Below, one piece after another: positions 22,072 to 30,486 of a DNA stretch of 37,965 nt; the stretch's first letter is position 1; every line of letters starts with the position of its first letter. Below the pieces are notes generated by a model that saw only the letters and a list, made by a program, of their open reading frames with translations, did not search any database and was not told where the DNA came from. The translations under genes and the position numbers were made by a program. This stretch comes from Fidelibacterota bacterium (GTDB taxonomy: Bacteria > Pseudomonadota > Alphaproteobacteria > Rhodospirillales > Rhodospirillaceae). The stretch spans positions 1 to 37,965 of the forward strand of contig CANJOI010000006.1 in the NCBI GenBank assembly GCA_947475365.1. Reading direction: 5' to 3'.

Positions 22072-23139
22072 TCAGTTGACCTCGCCGTTCTCCGACATGA
22101 AGACGGCGATCGGCCGGGTCTTGGGGAACTGCGCGAGGGTGATCATGGTCATCACCATCAGGGGCACCGAGAGCAGCATGCCGGCGACGCCCCAGATCGA
22201 GCCCCACACCGCCAGCGCCACGATCATCAGCAGCGGGGACAGGTTGAGCGACCGGCCCATCATGCGCGGTTCCAGAACGTTGCCGATCAGGGCATGGGTG
22301 GCGACCAGAACCCCCATGACCACGGCGGCCAGGCTCCATTCGCTGGTCTGGAGCAGGGCGATAATGGCCGGCGCGGCGATGCCGACCGCGGACCCCAGGT
22401 AGGGGATGTAGTTCGCGAGGAATGCGAGCAGGCCCAGGAAGGCCGCGAAGTCGATGCCCACCGCGGTCAGCGTGACATAGGTGATCGCCCCGATGATCAC
22501 GCTGATCACGGTCTTGATCAGCACGTATTTCTCGGTGCGCCGCCCGATTTCCAGGAGGATTCCGCGCAGGCGCTTCTCCCGGTTCGCGTCGGGGAACATC
22601 GCCGAAAGTTTGAGGTCGAAAGCCCGGCGCTCCAGCAGCACGAACACCAGATAGATCAGGATCTCGAAAGTGTTGCCGACCACGGCCTGCAGGGCGCCCG
22701 CGAACTTGGCGGCGGCCGCGGAGAGATCGATCTGTTGCAGGATGGTGGTCAGCGTCAGGGGTTCCTGGCGGTTGACGACCGCGGCCAGCAAGTCGTTCAC
22801 CTGTCCCAGCACCGTTTCCAGCCGCGTCTGGTATTGCGGTGCGGCAGCTACCGCATCCGCGACATTGCCGGCGATCACCTGGACCACGGCGGTCAGGAAC
22901 AGGATGAAAAACACGATCGCCAGGGTGAGCGACAGCCAGCCGGGGGGCGGCTTACCGCCGAATTTGACGCGCTCAATAACGTGGGACAGGGCCACCAGCA
23001 GATAGGCGATGAAGATCCCGAGCACGAGCGGGATCAGGACGTCCTTGCCCACCACCAGAAAATAGGTGGTCACCGCCAGGATGATCAGCGCTGTGGCGAC
23101 CGAGAAGATCGTGGTCCCGGAGGACGGGGCGGGCGTCAT
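22072..23139 (-). CDS. AI-2E family transporter (PerM/YdiK-like membrane protein)
   Basis: Multiple TM helices; IPLVLGIFIAYLL...; FLANYIPYLGSAVGIAAPAIIALLQ; IGNVLEPRMMGRSLNLSPLLMIVALAVWGSIWGVAGMLLSVPLMV. Confidence 0.93.
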   Translation of the reverse strand: MTPAPSSGTTIFSVATALIILAVTTYFLVVGKDVLIPLVLGIFIAYLLVALSHVIERVKFGGKPPPGWLSLTLAIVFFILFLTAVVQVIAGNVADAVAAAPQYQTRLETVLGQVNDLLAAVVNRQEPLTLTTILQQIDLSAAAAKFAGALQAVVGNTFEILIYLVFVLLERRAFDLKLSAMFPDANREKRLRGILLEIGRRTEKYVLIKTVISVIIGAITYVTLTAVGIDFAAFLGLLAFLANYIPYLGSAVGIAAPAIIALLQTSEWSLAAVVMGVLVATHALIGNVLEPRMMGRSLNLSPLLMIVALAVWGSIWGVAGMLLSVPLMVMTMITLAQFPKTRPIAVFMSENGEVN

Positions 23140-23157
23140 GAAGGGCGGGGCCAGGGA

Positions 23158-24459
23158 CTAGGGGACGGAGGCAAGGAAGAACAGCCGGAAGCTTAGCATG
23201 ACTTGGTTTTCAATGGCGTGAGCCGGTAGCCCGATCGCGGCCCGCTCAGGCCGGGTGCTGTTCACACGCAGGCCTTCCAGTGTGATGCGGGTCTTGGCGG
23301 TCGGCCGGAAATTGTAAGCCAGGGTCAGGGCTGATCCCCGCTCGTTGGTGTCATCCAGCGTAATGTTGTCGCTATGGGTTCCGAAACGGTCGAACCGGAA
23401 GCTCAGCCGATGTTGGCCCCACTCCTTGCTGATCAGCCCGTAGGCCGACCAGAATTCGGCGTAGTCGAGCGGGTAGGGCCGGTTGGGGATGGTGACCACG
23501 GTAGTCTTGCCGTTCATGTACTGGGCAACGAAGTCCACGTCCCACGGCAGCGTGGCGGTGTAGCCCAGGGCCCAGAATTTCGTATCCCAGGCCCACTGGC
23601 CGAGCGCCAGCGCCCGGTCGTTGGCGTTGTTGTCGTACCACAGCAGCGTCGCCTTGCCCCAGTCGGCGTGTTCCACGTAACCGGCGGCGTAGTAGCCCAC
23701 GCGCATGTCGATCTCGTGGAAAGGCCTCTCGGTCGGCGCCTGCCTGGACAACGTGCCGGTGGGCGGCTTGATGATCGGGATCTGGGTGAGCTGGATGCGG
23801 TCGAACAGCCCGACCTCCCGGTCATGCAGCGCCCATCCGCGCCAGGTGAGTTGGGTGCCCGCCGGATCGTTGGCGGTGTAGAGCGCACCGGTGACGCCGG
23901 CTTCCAGGTCATCGTTATGGTAGAAGGCCGTGGCCTCGCCGCCGATGGTGCGCAACTCCTCGCCGACCCAGGTATTGATGGCCGAAGAGGTGACGGTATA
24001 TGGGCTGGTCCAGGCGAGGCTGGTGTTCTCCAGCGAGATCGGCGGGAAAAAGAACCCGCCGCGGGCGCGAAAACCGAAATCGCCGGTCGGCGCGGGTTTG
24101 TATTGCAGGTAGGCCTCCTGCACGCTCAGGGCCTGGGCCTGCTCGGCGGCCACGGACACCACGATCCGGCCGGTGAGATCGAAGCCGAACTTGGGCTCGA
24201 TGATCAGGGCGCCTTCACCCCGTACAACGGCGTCGCCGGTGCCGCCGTAGCGGGTCTTGCCGAGGCCATTGCGTTCCCAGGTTTTGGTGTCGTCGGCGGC
24301 GACCACCCGGCCTTCCAGGTAGCCCTTGAGGTCGAGCTGAAAGTCCCCCAGGAAATTTGGCGGGAGCAGGCTGTCCGCATGCGCGGGCGCCGCGGCGAAA
24401 ACCAGGGGGCCGGCGATCAATCCGGACAGCAGCGCCGCGGACTGCACTCCCCCCCGCAT
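23158..24459 (-). CDS. Predicted outer-membrane beta-barrel/porin-like protein
   Basis: Signal peptide (MRGGVQSAALLSGLIAGPLVFAAAPAHA), alternating aromatic/amphipathic strands, C-terminal ...ENQVMLSFRLFF. Start at 24459 avoids overlap with the upstream gene (track start 24513). Confidence 0.7.
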   Translation of the reverse strand: MRGGVQSAALLSGLIAGPLVFAAAPAHADSLLPPNFLGDFQLDLKGYLEGRVVAADDTKTWERNGLGKTRYGGTGDAVVRGEGALIIEPKFGFDLTGRIVVSVAAEQAQALSVQEAYLQYKPAPTGDFGFRARGGFFFPPISLENTSLAWTSPYTVTSSAINTWVGEELRTIGGEATAFYHNDDLEAGVTGALYTANDPAGTQLTWRGWALHDREVGLFDRIQLTQIPIIKPPTGTLSRQAPTERPFHEIDMRVGYYAAGYVEHADWGKATLLWYDNNANDRALALGQWAWDTKFWALGYTATLPWDVDFVAQYMNGKTTVVTIPNRPYPLDYAEFWSAYGLISKEWGQHRLSFRFDRFGTHSDNITLDDTNERGSALTLAYNFRPTAKTRITLEGLRVNSTRPERAAIGLPAHAIENQVMLSFRLFFLASVP

Positions 24460-24464
24460 GCCGC

Positions 24465-26894
24465 CTATTCCCCCGCCACGGCTATGGGGCCTTGGGCTCG
24501 GCGCGGTGACCACCGCGATACCGCGTAGAACGTCTCGAAATCCTCGGCCGGGATCGGCTTGCTGATGAAGTAGCCTTGCCCGGTCTCGCAGCCATAGGCG
24601 GCGAGGATCTTGAGCGACTCCTCATCCTCGATGCCCTCGGCCGTGACCTTGAGCCCAAGATTGTGTCCAAGCTCGATGGTGGATTTGACCAGGATCGCAT
24701 CGCCCCGGTTGCTCGCGAGCTTGAGGACGAACGATTTGTCGATTTTGATCTCATGGACCGGAAGCCGTTTCAGGTAGGCCATGGACGAATAGCCCGTGCC
24801 GTAGTCGTCGATCGACAGCGTGAGCCCCATGCGGTGAAGCTGCGCCAGCACCTCGAGGGCGTGGCTGGGGTCCTGCATCACCGCGCTTTCGGTGATCTCC
24901 AGGATCAGCGCGCCCGGCGATACGCCGTGGGTATCGAGGAGGTTGCCGATGGCGGCCGGCAGGTCGCGGTTGGAGAGATCGCGGGCGGACAGGTTGCACG
25001 CGATCCTGACGTCGATGCCCTTGTCGCGCCAGGCGCGCGCCTGCCGGATCGCGGCGCCGAGCATCCAGGTGGTCAGCTTGCGGATATTGCCGGTCTGCTC
25101 GGCCAGCGGAATGAAGCTGTCCGGCGGCAGGAACCCGCGCTTGGGATGTATCCAGCGGATCAGGGCCTCGACCGCGGTAATGGCGCCGCGCGCGATGTCG
25201 ATCTTGGGCTGGTAGTAGAGGCGGAACTGGCCCTCGTCGAGCCCCTGACGCAACTCGCCCATCATGGACAGCCGCTCGGGCTTGTGAGGATCCAGTTCAG
25301 GGTCGTAGAGCGCGTAGTTGAGTCCAAGGCGCTTGGCCTCGAAGATCGCGGTATCGGCGTGCTGCATCAGGGTGCGCGCGGTTGTCCCATGCTCCGGGTA
25401 GTGGGCCTCGCCGACGATGGCGGTGATGTCGATGGCAAGGCCCGCAAGCGTGAACGGCTTGTCGAACAGGTCCAGCACGCGCTTGACGGCGGTCTGCACC
25501 TCGGCGGCGTCGGCGATGTCGAGCACCAGGGCGAACATGTTGTTGGAATGACGGGCAACCGCGTTGGTCTGCGGGACGAGCCGCTGCAGGCTCTTGGCGA
25601 CCTTGCGGACGAGTTGCTCGCCGGTGTCGTGGCCGAGCGTGTTGTTGAGCTCCGAGAAGCGGCCGATCTGCACCAGGAGGACGCTGAACACCTGGCTCGC
25701 GCCCGTCTTCTGGCGCGTGGCGATCATATCGGCTAGGTGGCCTTCAAACGACATGCGGTTGGGCAATCCTGAGGACGCGTCGTGGCGCGCCTGGAACGCG
25801 ATGCGCTCTTCGCGCTCGGCAATCCCCTCCATCATCTGATTGAAGGTCTCCGACAGGCGCCCGACTTCGTCGTTCTGGTGGATGTTGACCTTCTCATCGT
25901 AACGGCCGGCGTAGATGCGCTGCGCGGCCAGATCGAGGGCGCGGATCGGCCCCGCGATGCGTCGTGCGATCAACACCGAGCCGATCAGCGACAGCGCCAG
26001 CGCGACGCCGGCCACCAGCAGGAGGAAGATGTTGAGGCGGCGGTAAGGCGCGTAGGCGTCATCTAGCGAGTACTGAAGGACGGCCTGCACCTGGGAGGTG
26101 TCCGAAGGGCCCGCCAACGCGGCGGTCAGGGTCACATAATCAGCATTGTGAAGCTTGACCGTGTACGGGGCCGGGCTTGGATCGATCTTCTCCGGCAGGC
26201 CGGCCATCAATTCCGCCGCGGTGTCCTCGGCCAGCGTGGTGGCGGTCGTTTTCCAGGCCCCGTTCTCGCGGAAAGCCAGCGTGATCTCCACCGGCACGGT
26301 CGAGCTGTGCTGCAACTCGCTGGCGAAGAGATTGCTGCGCTCCATCGCCACCACGATCCAGGCAATGGGATCCGGCGCCAGGATGGGCACCACCACCAGC
26401 TGGTAGATGCGGTTGTCGAGCGTGGTGGTGGCGGCGGCCCGGCCGTCCGCGTCGGCATTCTCGATCATTCCGGGGTAGGCGAACGGCGCGCCGGGCTTTC
26501 CAACCGCGACAAAGTTTCCGGACTCGACCGCATCCGCCATGGTGCCGGTGTCCACCAGCACCTTGTTCTCCAGCGACACCAGCAGCATGCGGTCGGCGCG
26601 GTAGCGGGCGCCGAGATTATGCAAGGCGGACCGGATAGTGGGGCGGTCGTCGCTGGCCACGGCCTGGCGAAAACCGAAATCGCGCGCGAGGATGGCGGAG
26701 CCTTCCGCCAAGGTATCGACCGTCGATGTGATGCGGCTATCGACCACGCGCTTGGTGACGACCAGCTCGTTGCGGGCCTGTTCCAGAATGTTGGTGCGGA
26801 CGACGTTCTGCACCAACGTGAAGGTGACGACCTCCACGCCGACAAACAGCAGCCATGAGAACAGGATCAGCTTGGTCTGGAAGCTGCGAAACAC
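24465..26894 (-). CDS. Membrane c-di-GMP signalling protein: periplasmic sensor, HAMP, degenerate GGDEF, intact EAL phosphodiesterase
   Basis: N-terminal TM and periplasmic region; RRIAGPIRALDLAAQRI...EKVNIHQNDEVGRLSETFNQMM (HAMP); GGDEF site reads HSNNMFALV; EAL motifs YYQPKIDI, EALIRW, LEITESAVM, DYGTGYSSMAYLKRLP, IDKSFV, EGIED. Confidence 0.92.
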   Translation of the reverse strand: MFRSFQTKLILFSWLLFVGVEVVTFTLVQNVVRTNILEQARNELVVTKRVVDSRITSTVDTLAEGSAILARDFGFRQAVASDDRPTIRSALHNLGARYRADRMLLVSLENKVLVDTGTMADAVESGNFVAVGKPGAPFAYPGMIENADADGRAAATTTLDNRIYQLVVVPILAPDPIAWIVVAMERSNLFASELQHSSTVPVEITLAFRENGAWKTTATTLAEDTAAELMAGLPEKIDPSPAPYTVKLHNADYVTLTAALAGPSDTSQVQAVLQYSLDDAYAPYRRLNIFLLLVAGVALALSLIGSVLIARRIAGPIRALDLAAQRIYAGRYDEKVNIHQNDEVGRLSETFNQMMEGIAEREERIAFQARHDASSGLPNRMSFEGHLADMIATRQKTGASQVFSVLLVQIGRFSELNNTLGHDTGEQLVRKVAKSLQRLVPQTNAVARHSNNMFALVLDIADAAEVQTAVKRVLDLFDKPFTLAGLAIDITAIVGEAHYPEHGTTARTLMQHADTAIFEAKRLGLNYALYDPELDPHKPERLSMMGELRQGLDEGQFRLYYQPKIDIARGAITAVEALIRWIHPKRGFLPPDSFIPLAEQTGNIRKLTTWMLGAAIRQARAWRDKGIDVRIACNLSARDLSNRDLPAAIGNLLDTHGVSPGALILEITESAVMQDPSHALEVLAQLHRMGLTLSIDDYGTGYSSMAYLKRLPVHEIKIDKSFVLKLASNRGDAILVKSTIELGHNLGLKVTAEGIEDEESLKILAAYGCETGQGYFISKPIPAEDFETFYAVSRWSPRRAQGPIAVAGE

Positions 26895-26899
26895 GGGAC

Positions 26900-27583
26900 T
26901 CAGTATTCCTTCTCGTCGACAGCGCCAGGCTTGCGTTGGCGCCGCTCGCGTTTCATTTCGATCTTGAGGTCGACGGTGAGGGTATCGTTGGCGGCAAGGG
27001 TCACGTCCTTGGCGACCACTTCACTGGTCTTTTGACCCGGATGCCACACCTTCACGGTATAGGCGCCCGCGGGAAGCTGTTCCACCCGGCCCGCGCCGTC
27101 CTTGCCGCTCAATGCGAAGAACGGCGTGGCGACGACGTAGATATACGCCAGCATGTTGTCGTGAATGTTACACCCGAGGGCGACCACGCCCTCCTTGTCG
27201 AAGGTGACGCTATTGACCTCGTTGTTGCCGTAAAGCTTGAGCTCCAACGGCTTGGCCGCGGAAAATGAATAGACCTGGTGGCGGAACGGATCACGGTTGG
27301 GAAATTCGACCGTTGTCCCGAGTTGTACCGGCAGGACAAAGGGCGCGAACTGGCGGTCCTGCTGGATCATCACCGCACGGGCGCCGGCCTTTGCCGAGAG
27401 GGGCGGCTGACCGGTCCGCGAGACCGTCACCACCGCGCCCTCGGTGGCGCCCTTGTCGGACGTGATATGCGCCACCACGGTCGCCGACAGGGCCGGACCG
27501 GCCCAGCCGCAGGCGCCAAAAAGCGCCGCACGGGCCACCAGACCCGCGCCAAAAACGCCGTGCCGCCAAAGGCTTCTACCCAC
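26900..27583 (-). CDS. Secreted cupredoxin-domain protein ('methylamine utilization protein'-like)
   Basis: Signal peptide; VEFPNRDPFRHQVYSFS and GCNIHDNMLAYIYVV give His...Cys-x2-His-x2-Met type I copper ligands. Confidence 0.82.
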   Translation of the reverse strand: MGRSLWRHGVFGAGLVARAALFGACGWAGPALSATVVAHITSDKGATEGAVVTVSRTGQPPLSAKAGARAVMIQQDRQFAPFVLPVQLGTTVEFPNRDPFRHQVYSFSAAKPLELKLYGNNEVNSVTFDKEGVVALGCNIHDNMLAYIYVVATPFFALSGKDGAGRVEQLPAGAYTVKVWHPGQKTSEVVAKDVTLAANDTLTVDLKIEMKRERRQRKPGAVDEKEY

Positions 27584-27824
27584 CGCGCGTCCCCGTTTCC
27601 CCCGGTCATAGTGATTATCGCCCGCTAACAGGCCGAACGCCAGAGCCAGCGGGCAGGCTGAGAAGGGGTGTTAACACTTGGTAGTATTGAAGAAATTCGC
27701 CTTTCCGGCGTGAAAGCGGTGCCCGGGGGCCGCACACATAATATGTAGGCGCCGCTGATCTTGCCGGCTCACCCCCGCCGGTCTTGCCACCGCATCAACC
27801 AATAGGAGAACAGATGCTCAGGCC

Positions 27825-29543
27825 TCAGGAGGCAGGTTGGGCTCCGATCTGGCGGTATTCCAGGGGACCTGGCGCCTTCATCTTGGGGGTCCATTCCACG
27901 CGCAGGACCCGGCGTTCGATTTCGGTGCCCTTGAGCAGTTTCGGGCCCAGGTCCACAAAGCGCAGATTGCTTCCTCCGGTGCGCGCCGCGATCTCTTCGC
28001 TGCATGTGATCTGTCCGGCCTCGCCGGCGGCGCAGATGCCGTCGAGGAGCAGCACCGCCTCACCATGATATTCGCCTTCCTCCGCCGCCGCCTGGCCGGT
28101 GTGAAGCCCGACGCGCAGGGACAGGGGCGCCTCAGGATTGTCGGCGGCGTAGGTATGCGCGTCCTGCTGAATGGCGATCGCAGCGCGCGCGGCGGTGACC
28201 GCATCGGGGAACGTGAGCAGCATGCCGTCGCCGGTGTGCTTGATCTCACGGCCGCGGAATTCCTTGACCGCGGCGCGCGCGACCGTGTTGTGGGCGCGCA
28301 CCACGCGTTGCGCCGCCGAGTTTCCCAGTTTCGCGGTCAGCGCGGTCGAGCCGACAATGTCGGTCAGCAGGAAGATGACGGCCACCGACTTGGCGCCGCG
28401 CGCGGCGGGATCCGACCACTCCCGCAGCAGGGCGTCGAGTTTCTCGTGCCTGGGTTTGCCGTCCTCACCGGGCGGCGCGGTAAAGGCCTCGGCGCCCGCG
28501 TCCGCCAGGGCCTTGTAGCGCGGCCGTCCGAGAGAGGGTTCGAGGCGCTCGACGAACGACTGCACGGTCCCGGCGTTCGTGCCCGCGCGCTCCAGGGTTT
28601 GCGCCAAAATCTCGCGCCGGACTTCCGGCGGCAGTGAAACCCCTGACGCGGCGGTCAGGTCGCAGGCTCTGATCGCGGCGCCGCCGAGATAGAGGTTGAG
28701 CCCGAAGCGCTCGAACGCCTGCATCTCCGGCCGCGACAGCGCGAGCAGTCCCAACGCCGCGTCGGTGAAGATGAACAGCGTGTTACGGGCGACCTCGCGC
28801 GCCGCTTCGACCTCCGGCGGCCATGCGGGCACGAGCGGCACCGTCGCGGCGATGGGCTGGGCGGGCTCTTGCGGCAGCTCGCTGATCTGGAATGAGGTCT
28901 GGAGCGGGGCGGGCTCCCCGGGCGCGCGGGACGGTGTCGCGGACGGCGCATCGGACGCCAGCGGCGGCGCCACGGCGGCCTCGCGAAACCCCGGACGCAT
29001 TGGCCGTGGTTGAAACTCGCTGCGTCCGCCGTGAACAAGCGCGTCGATGCAGCGGGCGCGCGCTTCCGGGGTCTTGCCGCGCCACAGGATCAGTTCCATG
29101 GGCACGTACACCTTGAACAGCAACAAGGCGCTCGCCAGCATTGACGCGGCGAAGATAAAGAACAGCAACATGTTATAGGCGCCGGCCTCGGCATTGGCCG
29201 CCTTGAGAGGTTGCAGGCCGATCATGGCGAGCACCGTGACGATGGCGCCCACGCCGATGGCGTTGATCACCACCATGACAATGCGCGAAGCGATATCCGT
29301 GTCCTCGGGCGGGCCCTTGACCTCAGGGGCTGCCTTACCGAACCGTTTGACGACGCGCAGCGAGACTTCGCCGGTTTCCTGGTTCTCCGTCTCCTCGAGC
29401 ACCTGAACCGGAATCCCGGTGCTCGCCTCCAGCACACGCCCGGCCTCGATCGCCTTGTCCTGGTCGTGCGCGGCCAGCCGCTGGTGCAATGCCCAGCGGT
29501 CGAACTTGACCTGGTACACCTCGTAGGTGGTGATCGGCTTCAT
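27825..29543 (-). CDS. Class III adenylate/guanylate cyclase, membrane anchored
   Basis: Two TM helices then FLLTDIVGSTALTAKLGN, EIKHTGDGMLLTFPDA, LSLRVGLHTGQ; both metal-binding Asp present. Confidence 0.9.
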   Translation of the reverse strand: MKPITTYEVYQVKFDRWALHQRLAAHDQDKAIEAGRVLEASTGIPVQVLEETENQETGEVSLRVVKRFGKAAPEVKGPPEDTDIASRIVMVVINAIGVGAIVTVLAMIGLQPLKAANAEAGAYNMLLFFIFAASMLASALLLFKVYVPMELILWRGKTPEARARCIDALVHGGRSEFQPRPMRPGFREAAVAPPLASDAPSATPSRAPGEPAPLQTSFQISELPQEPAQPIAATVPLVPAWPPEVEAAREVARNTLFIFTDAALGLLALSRPEMQAFERFGLNLYLGGAAIRACDLTAASGVSLPPEVRREILAQTLERAGTNAGTVQSFVERLEPSLGRPRYKALADAGAEAFTAPPGEDGKPRHEKLDALLREWSDPAARGAKSVAVIFLLTDIVGSTALTAKLGNSAAQRVVRAHNTVARAAVKEFRGREIKHTGDGMLLTFPDAVTAARAAIAIQQDAHTYAADNPEAPLSLRVGLHTGQAAAEEGEYHGEAVLLLDGICAAGEAGQITCSEEIAARTGGSNLRFVDLGPKLLKGTEIERRVLRVEWTPKMKAPGPLEYRQIGAQPAS

Positions 29544-29697: not shown

Positions 29698-30486
29698 TTA
29701 CAGCGCGGGGGTCTGGCCCTGGGCAAGCATGGCGTTGCGGGCGATCAGCAGTTCCCAGTTGTTCATGGACTGCAGATGGAAATAAATCCCGTACATATAG
29801 CCCTTCTTAAACCAGTCCAGCACGGTCGCGTCGGGCAGCTGGCGGAACTTGTCCTCGGACACGCGCTTGAATGAGCCGAGGGTGGTCTTCTGCCCGCCCG
29901 GGCCGGCTTCGACCTCCAAGGTGCGCTCCTCGATGATGTCGGCGTCGAGCAAGGCCTTGGAGAAATCGCGGGTGAAGGTGAAGGCCTGGTGGAACTGCTC
30001 GCACAGCTCCACGGCCTGTTTGGTGGCGGCGGTCTGCTCGCCTTTTTCAAACAGCGCGCGCGCGCCGGGTTTGCTCGACGCGGCGACGCCGTCGATGCCC
30101 AGGTGCAAAAGGTCGCTGCCTTCGGCGCCCAGCAGGATGAACGGATAACGGCGGACGTACGCCGGCACATACTGGCCCAAGGCCCATTCGCCCTTGTCAT
30201 TGACGAACAGGTTGTGCTGCGGATTGAAGCCGAGCGCCGCGGTCGGGACCAGGTCGGGGCCCAGGAACATGATCGGATAGTGGCGCGCGACCATCATGAA
30301 CTCGGGCAGCGTCACCGGCACCGTGTTGACGTGGGCGGCGAAGGAGAAGTCGAGCTCGGGGCGGATGCTCACGCCGACATGGGCCTCCGCGCGCACCGGC
30401 TCGGGGCGGGTGTAGAACATCGGCGGCTGCGCGTCCTGCGCTCCGGCGGCGGGCGCGGTCTGGCCATTGGCGGTCTTGGTATTCAC
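29698..30486 (-). CDS. SapC family protein
   Basis: SFAAHVNTVPVTLPEFMMVARHYPIMFLG...LGFNPQHNLFVNDKGEWALGQYVPAYVRRYPFIL is the typical SapC core. Confidence 0.9.
   Translation of the reverse strand: MNTKTANGQTAPAAGAQDAQPPMFYTRPEPVRAEAHVGVSIRPELDFSFAAHVNTVPVTLPEFMMVARHYPIMFLGPDLVPTAALGFNPQHNLFVNDKGEWALGQYVPAYVRRYPFILLGAEGSDLLHLGIDGVAASSKPGARALFEKGEQTAATKQAVELCEQFHQAFTFTRDFSKALLDADIIEERTLEVEAGPGGQKTTLGSFKRVSEDKFRQLPDATVLDWFKKGYMYGIYFHLQSMNNWELLIARNAMLAQGQTPAL

Follow-up and report, generated by a model that had tools for sequence, protein, structure and literature searches.

A predicted type 1 cupredoxin encoded beside a dCache-HAMP-GGDEF-EAL protein suggests a family of copper- or redox-fed sensors in Proteobacteria

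Introduction

The dCache-like domain of LuxQ reads the periplasmic protein LuxP, which binds AI-2, and the signal is passed to a histidine kinase output. In the YfiBNR (TpbB) system the components are a periplasmic regulator, YfiR, an inner-membrane c-di-GMP enzyme, the cyclase YfiN, and an outer-membrane part, the lipoprotein YfiB. For most GGDEF-EAL receptors, to our knowledge, the input is not established. One described case is MbaA of Vibrio cholerae, which detects polyamines through periplasmic NspS (PMC8967002). The genes of many sensor kinases also lie next to that of their binding protein (PMC11113362). Periplasmic Cache-like metal sensing, with copper as a reported ligand, feeds into the GGDEF-EAL proteins IsmP (PA2072) and PA14_37690, in which the metal binds the protein's own sensor domain and no cupredoxin is mentioned (PMC13277305).

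The locus described here spans positions 22072-27583 on the minus strand of the window, the whole 37,965-nucleotide stretch of DNA that was analyzed, and consists of genes for a cupredoxin, a sensor protein and a barrel together with an AI-2E transporter neighbor. As with NspS-MbaA, in which the receptor reads its periplasmic partner, a periplasmic protein is encoded with a membrane GGDEF-EAL receptor (PMC8967002). However, NspS is a polyamine-binding solute-binding protein whereas the proteins here are a cupredoxin and an outer-membrane barrel, and MbaA is bifunctional whereas the GGDEF motif is degenerate in most members of the present family. The dCache-like sensor domain is shared with LuxP-LuxQ, the LuxQ structure 3c38 being a fold match of the sensor. 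Both the AI-2 binding partner and the histidine kinase output of LuxQ differ from those here. By analogy, the module would work like NspS-MbaA and LuxP-LuxQ, yet it is not a member of either system as the partner is a cupredoxin. In contrast to IsmP and PA14_37690, the sensor is without conserved metal ligands. The likeness to YfiBNR is one of three-part layout. YfiR is not a cupredoxin, and neither the lipoprotein YfiB nor the cyclase YfiN corresponds in type to the proteins of the locus. The type 1 copper ligand order and the C-x2-H-x2-M loop are common to the cupredoxin and to amicyanin and pseudoazurin, although here the copper domain appears to be inserted in a CarboxypepD_reg domain, the partner would be a sensor and the profile similarity to those proteins is weak. 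No description of the module was found in the open-access literature. PdeB of Shewanella was considered as a studied member and set aside: papers on the protein exist, and no link to a cupredoxin emerged.

Results

Open reading frame calls bore out the arrangement of three almost contiguous minus-strand genes claimed in the first-pass annotation of this DNA. The cupredoxin gene (26900-27583) is separated by 5 nt from that of the EAL protein (24465-26894), which in turn lies 5 nt from the ATG (24459) of a barrel gene that extends to 23158. An AI-2E family transporter gene (22072-23139, minus strand; Pfam E 8e-47) begins 18 nt past the barrel, also as claimed. The AI-2E gene was near the cupredoxin in close relatives only, and the transporter probably is a lineage-specific neighbor outside the module. 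The order cupredoxin-sensor was found repeatedly in alpha-, beta- and gammaproteobacteria, which argues that the gene arrangement is not due to chance.

The cupredoxin (227 aa, GTG start) possesses a signal-like N-terminus and the type I copper ligands that the earlier annotation had noted. Alignment of homologues identified His102 in the motif FRHQVYSF (codon 27278-27280, minus strand) as a predicted type 1 copper ligand, with Cys138, His141 and Met144 predicted as the others in CNIHDNM (27152-27172, minus strand), which has the pattern C-x2-H-x2-M. The His102 position is occupied by histidine in 150 of 151 aligned homologues, the single exception being truncated. The C-x2-H-x2-M motif is kept in 125 of the 126 homologues that were recovered by profile or protein search alone, the exception lying at a contig end, and in all 65 homologues that were found using a pattern; the loci of the GTDB contig scan were picked partly by copper-ligand motifs. 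Overall, truncated sequences aside, the H-C-H-M ligands in cupredoxin order were invariant across ~190 homologues, the histidine having been checked in 151, and remained so whatever the output type of the neighboring dCache protein. On ligand order and profile similarity the protein is assigned to the type 1 copper class and is predicted to bind copper. The cupredoxin profile weakly matched the copper nitrite reductase CuNIR 6hbe (E 7.7e-5, profile positions 43-118), and the similarity to the pseudoazurin profile also was weak (E 0.02). The whole protein scored 30.4 bits for CarboxypepD_reg (cut-off 32.3), which rose to 39.3 bits when the two halves were joined; two relatives scored 43.9 and 34.9 bits. 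As the score rises on joining the N- and C-terminal parts, a CarboxypepD_reg-like beta-sandwich seems to be split by the insertion of the copper domain (residues ~70-150).

The adjoining gene (24465-26894, minus strand) encodes an 809 aa protein for which Pfam identified dCache_3 (residues 40-214, E 8e-7), HAMP (308-358, E 8e-12), GGDEF (369-525, E 8e-30) and EAL (547-780, E 1.5e-74) domains. The first-pass annotation had correctly described a membrane protein with a periplasmic sensor, which proves to be of the dCache type, and HAMP and EAL domains, but had overlooked the GGDEF domain. Residues 1-310 (25965-26894, minus strand), which make up the membrane portion and the periplasmic sensor, were modeled by AlphaFold2 with a mean pLDDT of 92.5 as a long N-terminal helix and two stacked PAS-like modules. 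Foldseek comparison of this model gave DctB (3e4o) as the top match (E 2.5e-10), along with LuxQ (3c38; E 5.9e-6) and the dCache domains of chemoreceptors. Searches for sequence-related solved structures of either the sensor or the barrel found none. dCache_3 is present in all 70 sensor relatives, 21 of which score as CHASE4 too. The sensor displayed no conserved His, Cys or Met: no alignment column held any of these residues in at least half of the rows. In the EAL domain (24555-25256, minus strand), all of the catalytic residues that were tested by alignment, namely E576, N634, E666, D696, D697, K717, E753 and Q773, are identical in 88 of 88 homologues, and with this intact set the domain is predicted to be a phosphodiesterase. 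The GGDEF motif instead is degenerate, reading SNNMF in the window protein, which departs from the GG(D/E)EF active site of diguanylate cyclases, and exactly GGDEF in 15 of the 88 homologues.

The scan of GTDB contigs identified 241 stretches that encode a relative, the best 80 of which are from alpha-, beta- and gammaproteobacteria. A set of 399 Proteobacteria genomes was searched separately with the cupredoxin and with the sensor domain, and counts were made on 398 with the window's genome left out. Both proteins were found in 48 genomes, the cupredoxin only in four and the sensor only in one (Fisher p 5e-56, in a test that takes genomes as independent despite their kinship). The pairing, which thus co-occurs near-perfectly, extends far outside the genus, to 33 genera in 14 families, and so decisively escapes the first refutation named in the first-pass annotation, a lack of synteny beyond the genus. 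Among the genomes with the cupredoxin only, two (G081 and G112) carry a diverged sensor attached to a histidine kinase; G292 ends on a short contig. Both genes were present yet unlinked in five genomes (G186, G218, G202, G434 and G075; locus pairs L176/L213, L146/L214, L144 and L177/L215, L174/L216, and L175/L217). As the two genes are kept in these genomes, hitch-hiking within an operon alone is insufficient to explain their co-occurrence. At 120 of the 146 cupredoxin loci with wide flanks, an EAL-type sensor is encoded within ~5 kb, usually as the next gene. Fusions of the cupredoxin with the sensor were not seen in the sample, and no copper-homeostasis gene, whether exporter or regulator, recurred among the neighbors of the cupredoxin loci. 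A cupredoxin-EAL pair also is located on a Comamonas aquatica plasmid (L180, 5935-8927), adjoining genes for type IV and conjugative pili. Wider relatives of the cupredoxin at L168, L170, L259 and L262 lie beside metallophosphoesterase-like and cytochrome genes or a di-haem peroxidase gene, without a sensor.

Diverged cupredoxins are found beside dCache proteins with other outputs. Genes for dCache-Ser/Thr kinase proteins adjoin the cupredoxin at L165, L277, L284 and L285, and at L164 and L167 the partner is a dCache-PAS-histidine kinase-receiver protein, with a CCP/MauG gene in between. At L276 the output is a class III cyclase; Pfam scored HAMP and cyclase domains only in that protein, the periplasmic part of which looks dCache-like by inspection alone. 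The C-x2-H-x2-M ligands are kept at all loci with other outputs. The diverged relatives stay with dCache while the output varies, which is the strongest indication of a place for the cupredoxin on the input side. CCP/MauG di-haem peroxidases adjoin the cupredoxin at L164, L167, L169 and L170. Genes for a PP2C phosphatase and an unassigned, possible barrel protein are nearby at three loci with the cupredoxin-dCache-Ser/Thr kinase arrangement (L277, L278 and L280).

The third gene of the window locus (23158-24459, minus strand) specifies a predicted outer-membrane beta-barrel, in agreement with the earlier annotation. The AlphaFold2 model (pLDDT 87.5) has 16 strands and a porin fold, and Foldseek matched solved porins, namely VhChiP (E 8.5e-11), Omp32 and OprP, with TM-scores of about 0.4-0.66. 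An alternative GTG start at 24513 overlaps the EAL gene. The window barrel itself gave no Pfam or NCBIfam match over the cut-off, and its relatives give weak BBP2/Porin_4 matches. Involvement of an outer-membrane barrel, which also had been suggested, now has the form of an association that recurs across loci: among the 146 wide-flank cupredoxin loci the main outer-membrane partners are the window barrel family (64 loci) and DUF3034 (46 loci), the latter being a putative barrel on its sequence. Homology between the two families was considered and rejected (hhalign probability 0.4%). There are approximately ten switches between the two partner types on the cupredoxin tree, a FastTree phylogeny with many weak branches, and both types stand back to back at L072, L089 and L095. 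A truncated globin usually accompanies the DUF3034 type and is common in beta and gamma lineages. The pair of DUF3034 and truncated globin recurs with the cupredoxin-EAL module at L182 (4590-5977), where the globin has a signal-like N-terminus, and at ~45 other loci. A globin search of the window's genome, which is ~80% complete, gave no match whereas positive controls matched. At L172-L176 the cupredoxin and a barrel are found without an adjoining sensor, and the distant relatives L166 and L171 have the globin and DUF3034 without a sensor nearby.

Upstream of the cupredoxin gene is a promoter-like element of putative function, CTGGCGTT-N14-GCGATAAT (27614-27643, minus strand). The consensus CTGGYNTT-N(12-15)-GCRATAAT recurs upstream of the cupredoxin in loci of the same genus, and the element has only one match in the genome and none in a reversed control. 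It may be a dedicated promoter of the cupredoxin. In the regions preceding 165 cupredoxin genes, FNR and CRP-type sites were not above the level in shuffled sequences. Directly upstream of the cupredoxin gene, positions 27825-29543 (minus strand) encode a 572-aa protein with a class III adenylate/guanylate cyclase domain (E 1e-6), and 13 related loci have a homologue of it close to the cupredoxin; the class III cyclase output at L276 may be compared. Further upstream (29698-30486, minus strand) is a gene for a SapC family protein (E 7.5e-58) that is conserved in close relatives.

Discussion

We propose that the locus would encode a three-part envelope signaling module in which the secreted type 1 cupredoxin would serve the dCache domain of the membrane c-di-GMP phosphodiesterase as periplasmic input. 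The copper-loaded or redox state of the cupredoxin would set whether it docks on the dCache domain, and docking would alter EAL activity via HAMP and the degenerate GGDEF domain. The outer-membrane barrel probably would let in whichever copper species or redox-active solute determines the state of the cupredoxin. We infer copper binding, the contact between cupredoxin and dCache, the sign of its effect and the barrel's role. In our judgement it is somewhat better than an even proposition that the dCache domain has the cupredoxin as its periplasmic input partner, reporting copper or redox state. The adjacency of the genes can be read as partnership since many sensor kinases are encoded beside their binding protein (PMC11113362). 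The suggestion in the first-pass annotation that the cupredoxin serves the sensor domain has been strengthened, the additions being the kinase and cyclase dCache partners of relatives and the five genomes in which both genes are kept unlinked. When direct coupling analysis was applied to 136 pairs (effective 120), too few to be informative on contact, 40 of the 100 strongest couplings were inter-protein, where a random draw would give 49%. The barrel-only loci L172-L176 and the sensor-less L166 and L171 indicate that the cupredoxin may do work apart from the sensor too.

Other readings of the locus draw on much of the same evidence. The cupredoxin and barrel, with the globin or di-haem peroxidase elsewhere, could together serve electron transfer or detoxification in the periplasm, for example against NO, peroxide or oxygen stress, as a unit with which the EAL sensor is merely co-regulated, reading a small molecule tied to that chemistry without touching the cupredoxin. 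The truncated globin and DUF3034 that join the module in many beta and gamma lineages, the CCP/MauG peroxidases that adjoin the cupredoxin at four loci, the cupredoxins with an adjoining barrel and no adjoining sensor gene, and the top structural match of the sensor to DctB, a small-molecule sensor, are in keeping with this view. However, the window's genome is without a globin match and most alpha modules are without globin and peroxidase; the added genes vary whereas cupredoxin and sensor co-occur almost perfectly, and the sensor type is constant while outputs change. We regard such a unit as unlikely, if a serious contender. The companion globins and peroxidases lean toward redox or NO/oxygen chemistry as the signal, and the invariant copper site fits both copper and redox.

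In a copper-handling reading, copper would enter through the barrel, be buffered or carried by the cupredoxin and be sensed directly by the dCache domain. This reading finds a precedent in the CHASE4 domain of the GGDEF-EAL protein PA14_37690 that binds copper 1:1 (PMC13277305), and both the CHASE4 scores of 21 of the 70 sensors and the invariant cupredoxin ligands accord with it. The sensor family is without conserved His, Cys and Met, such that copper would need to come on the cupredoxin, and neither an exporter nor a regulator of copper is a recurring neighbor. We judge this reading quite improbable. Hardly credible is the role of amicyanin-like electron acceptor in methylamine oxidation that is implied by the label 'methylamine utilization protein' in public records. 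The C-x2-H-x2-M spacing matches that of amicyanin. However, the cupredoxin is larger with its split CarboxypepD_reg domain, and mau-type genes are absent among the recurring neighbors. A search for the methylamine dehydrogenase heavy chain in the genome gave no match, a weak negative as control genomes gave none either. The label probably is misleading, as the first-pass annotation had maintained.

The cupredoxin as periplasmic input partner of dCache may extend to a more general arrangement. We put forward only tentatively, and as something short of an even prospect, that a trans-envelope device is widespread in Proteobacteria, in which the dedicated task of the cupredoxin is to report redox or copper to dCache receptors whose outputs (c-di-GMP phosphodiesterase, Ser/Thr kinase, histidine kinase or nucleotide cyclase) and outer-membrane barrels are swappable. 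If so, periplasmic electron-transfer chemistry or copper would be read directly as a protein-protein signal.

In many Proteobacteria the cupredoxin is encoded beside, and almost never without, a predicted c-di-GMP-degrading membrane sensor, which points to sensors fed by copper or redox as a family that apparently has gone undescribed. The tight co-occurrence with a copper-type protein names a specific input that can be tested for a large number of GGDEF-EAL receptors. If true, the proposal would explain a gene family that is mislabeled as 'methylamine utilization protein' in databases, and would link the switch between motile and sessile states to the copper or redox state of the periplasm, joined in some lineages by a globin or peroxidase.
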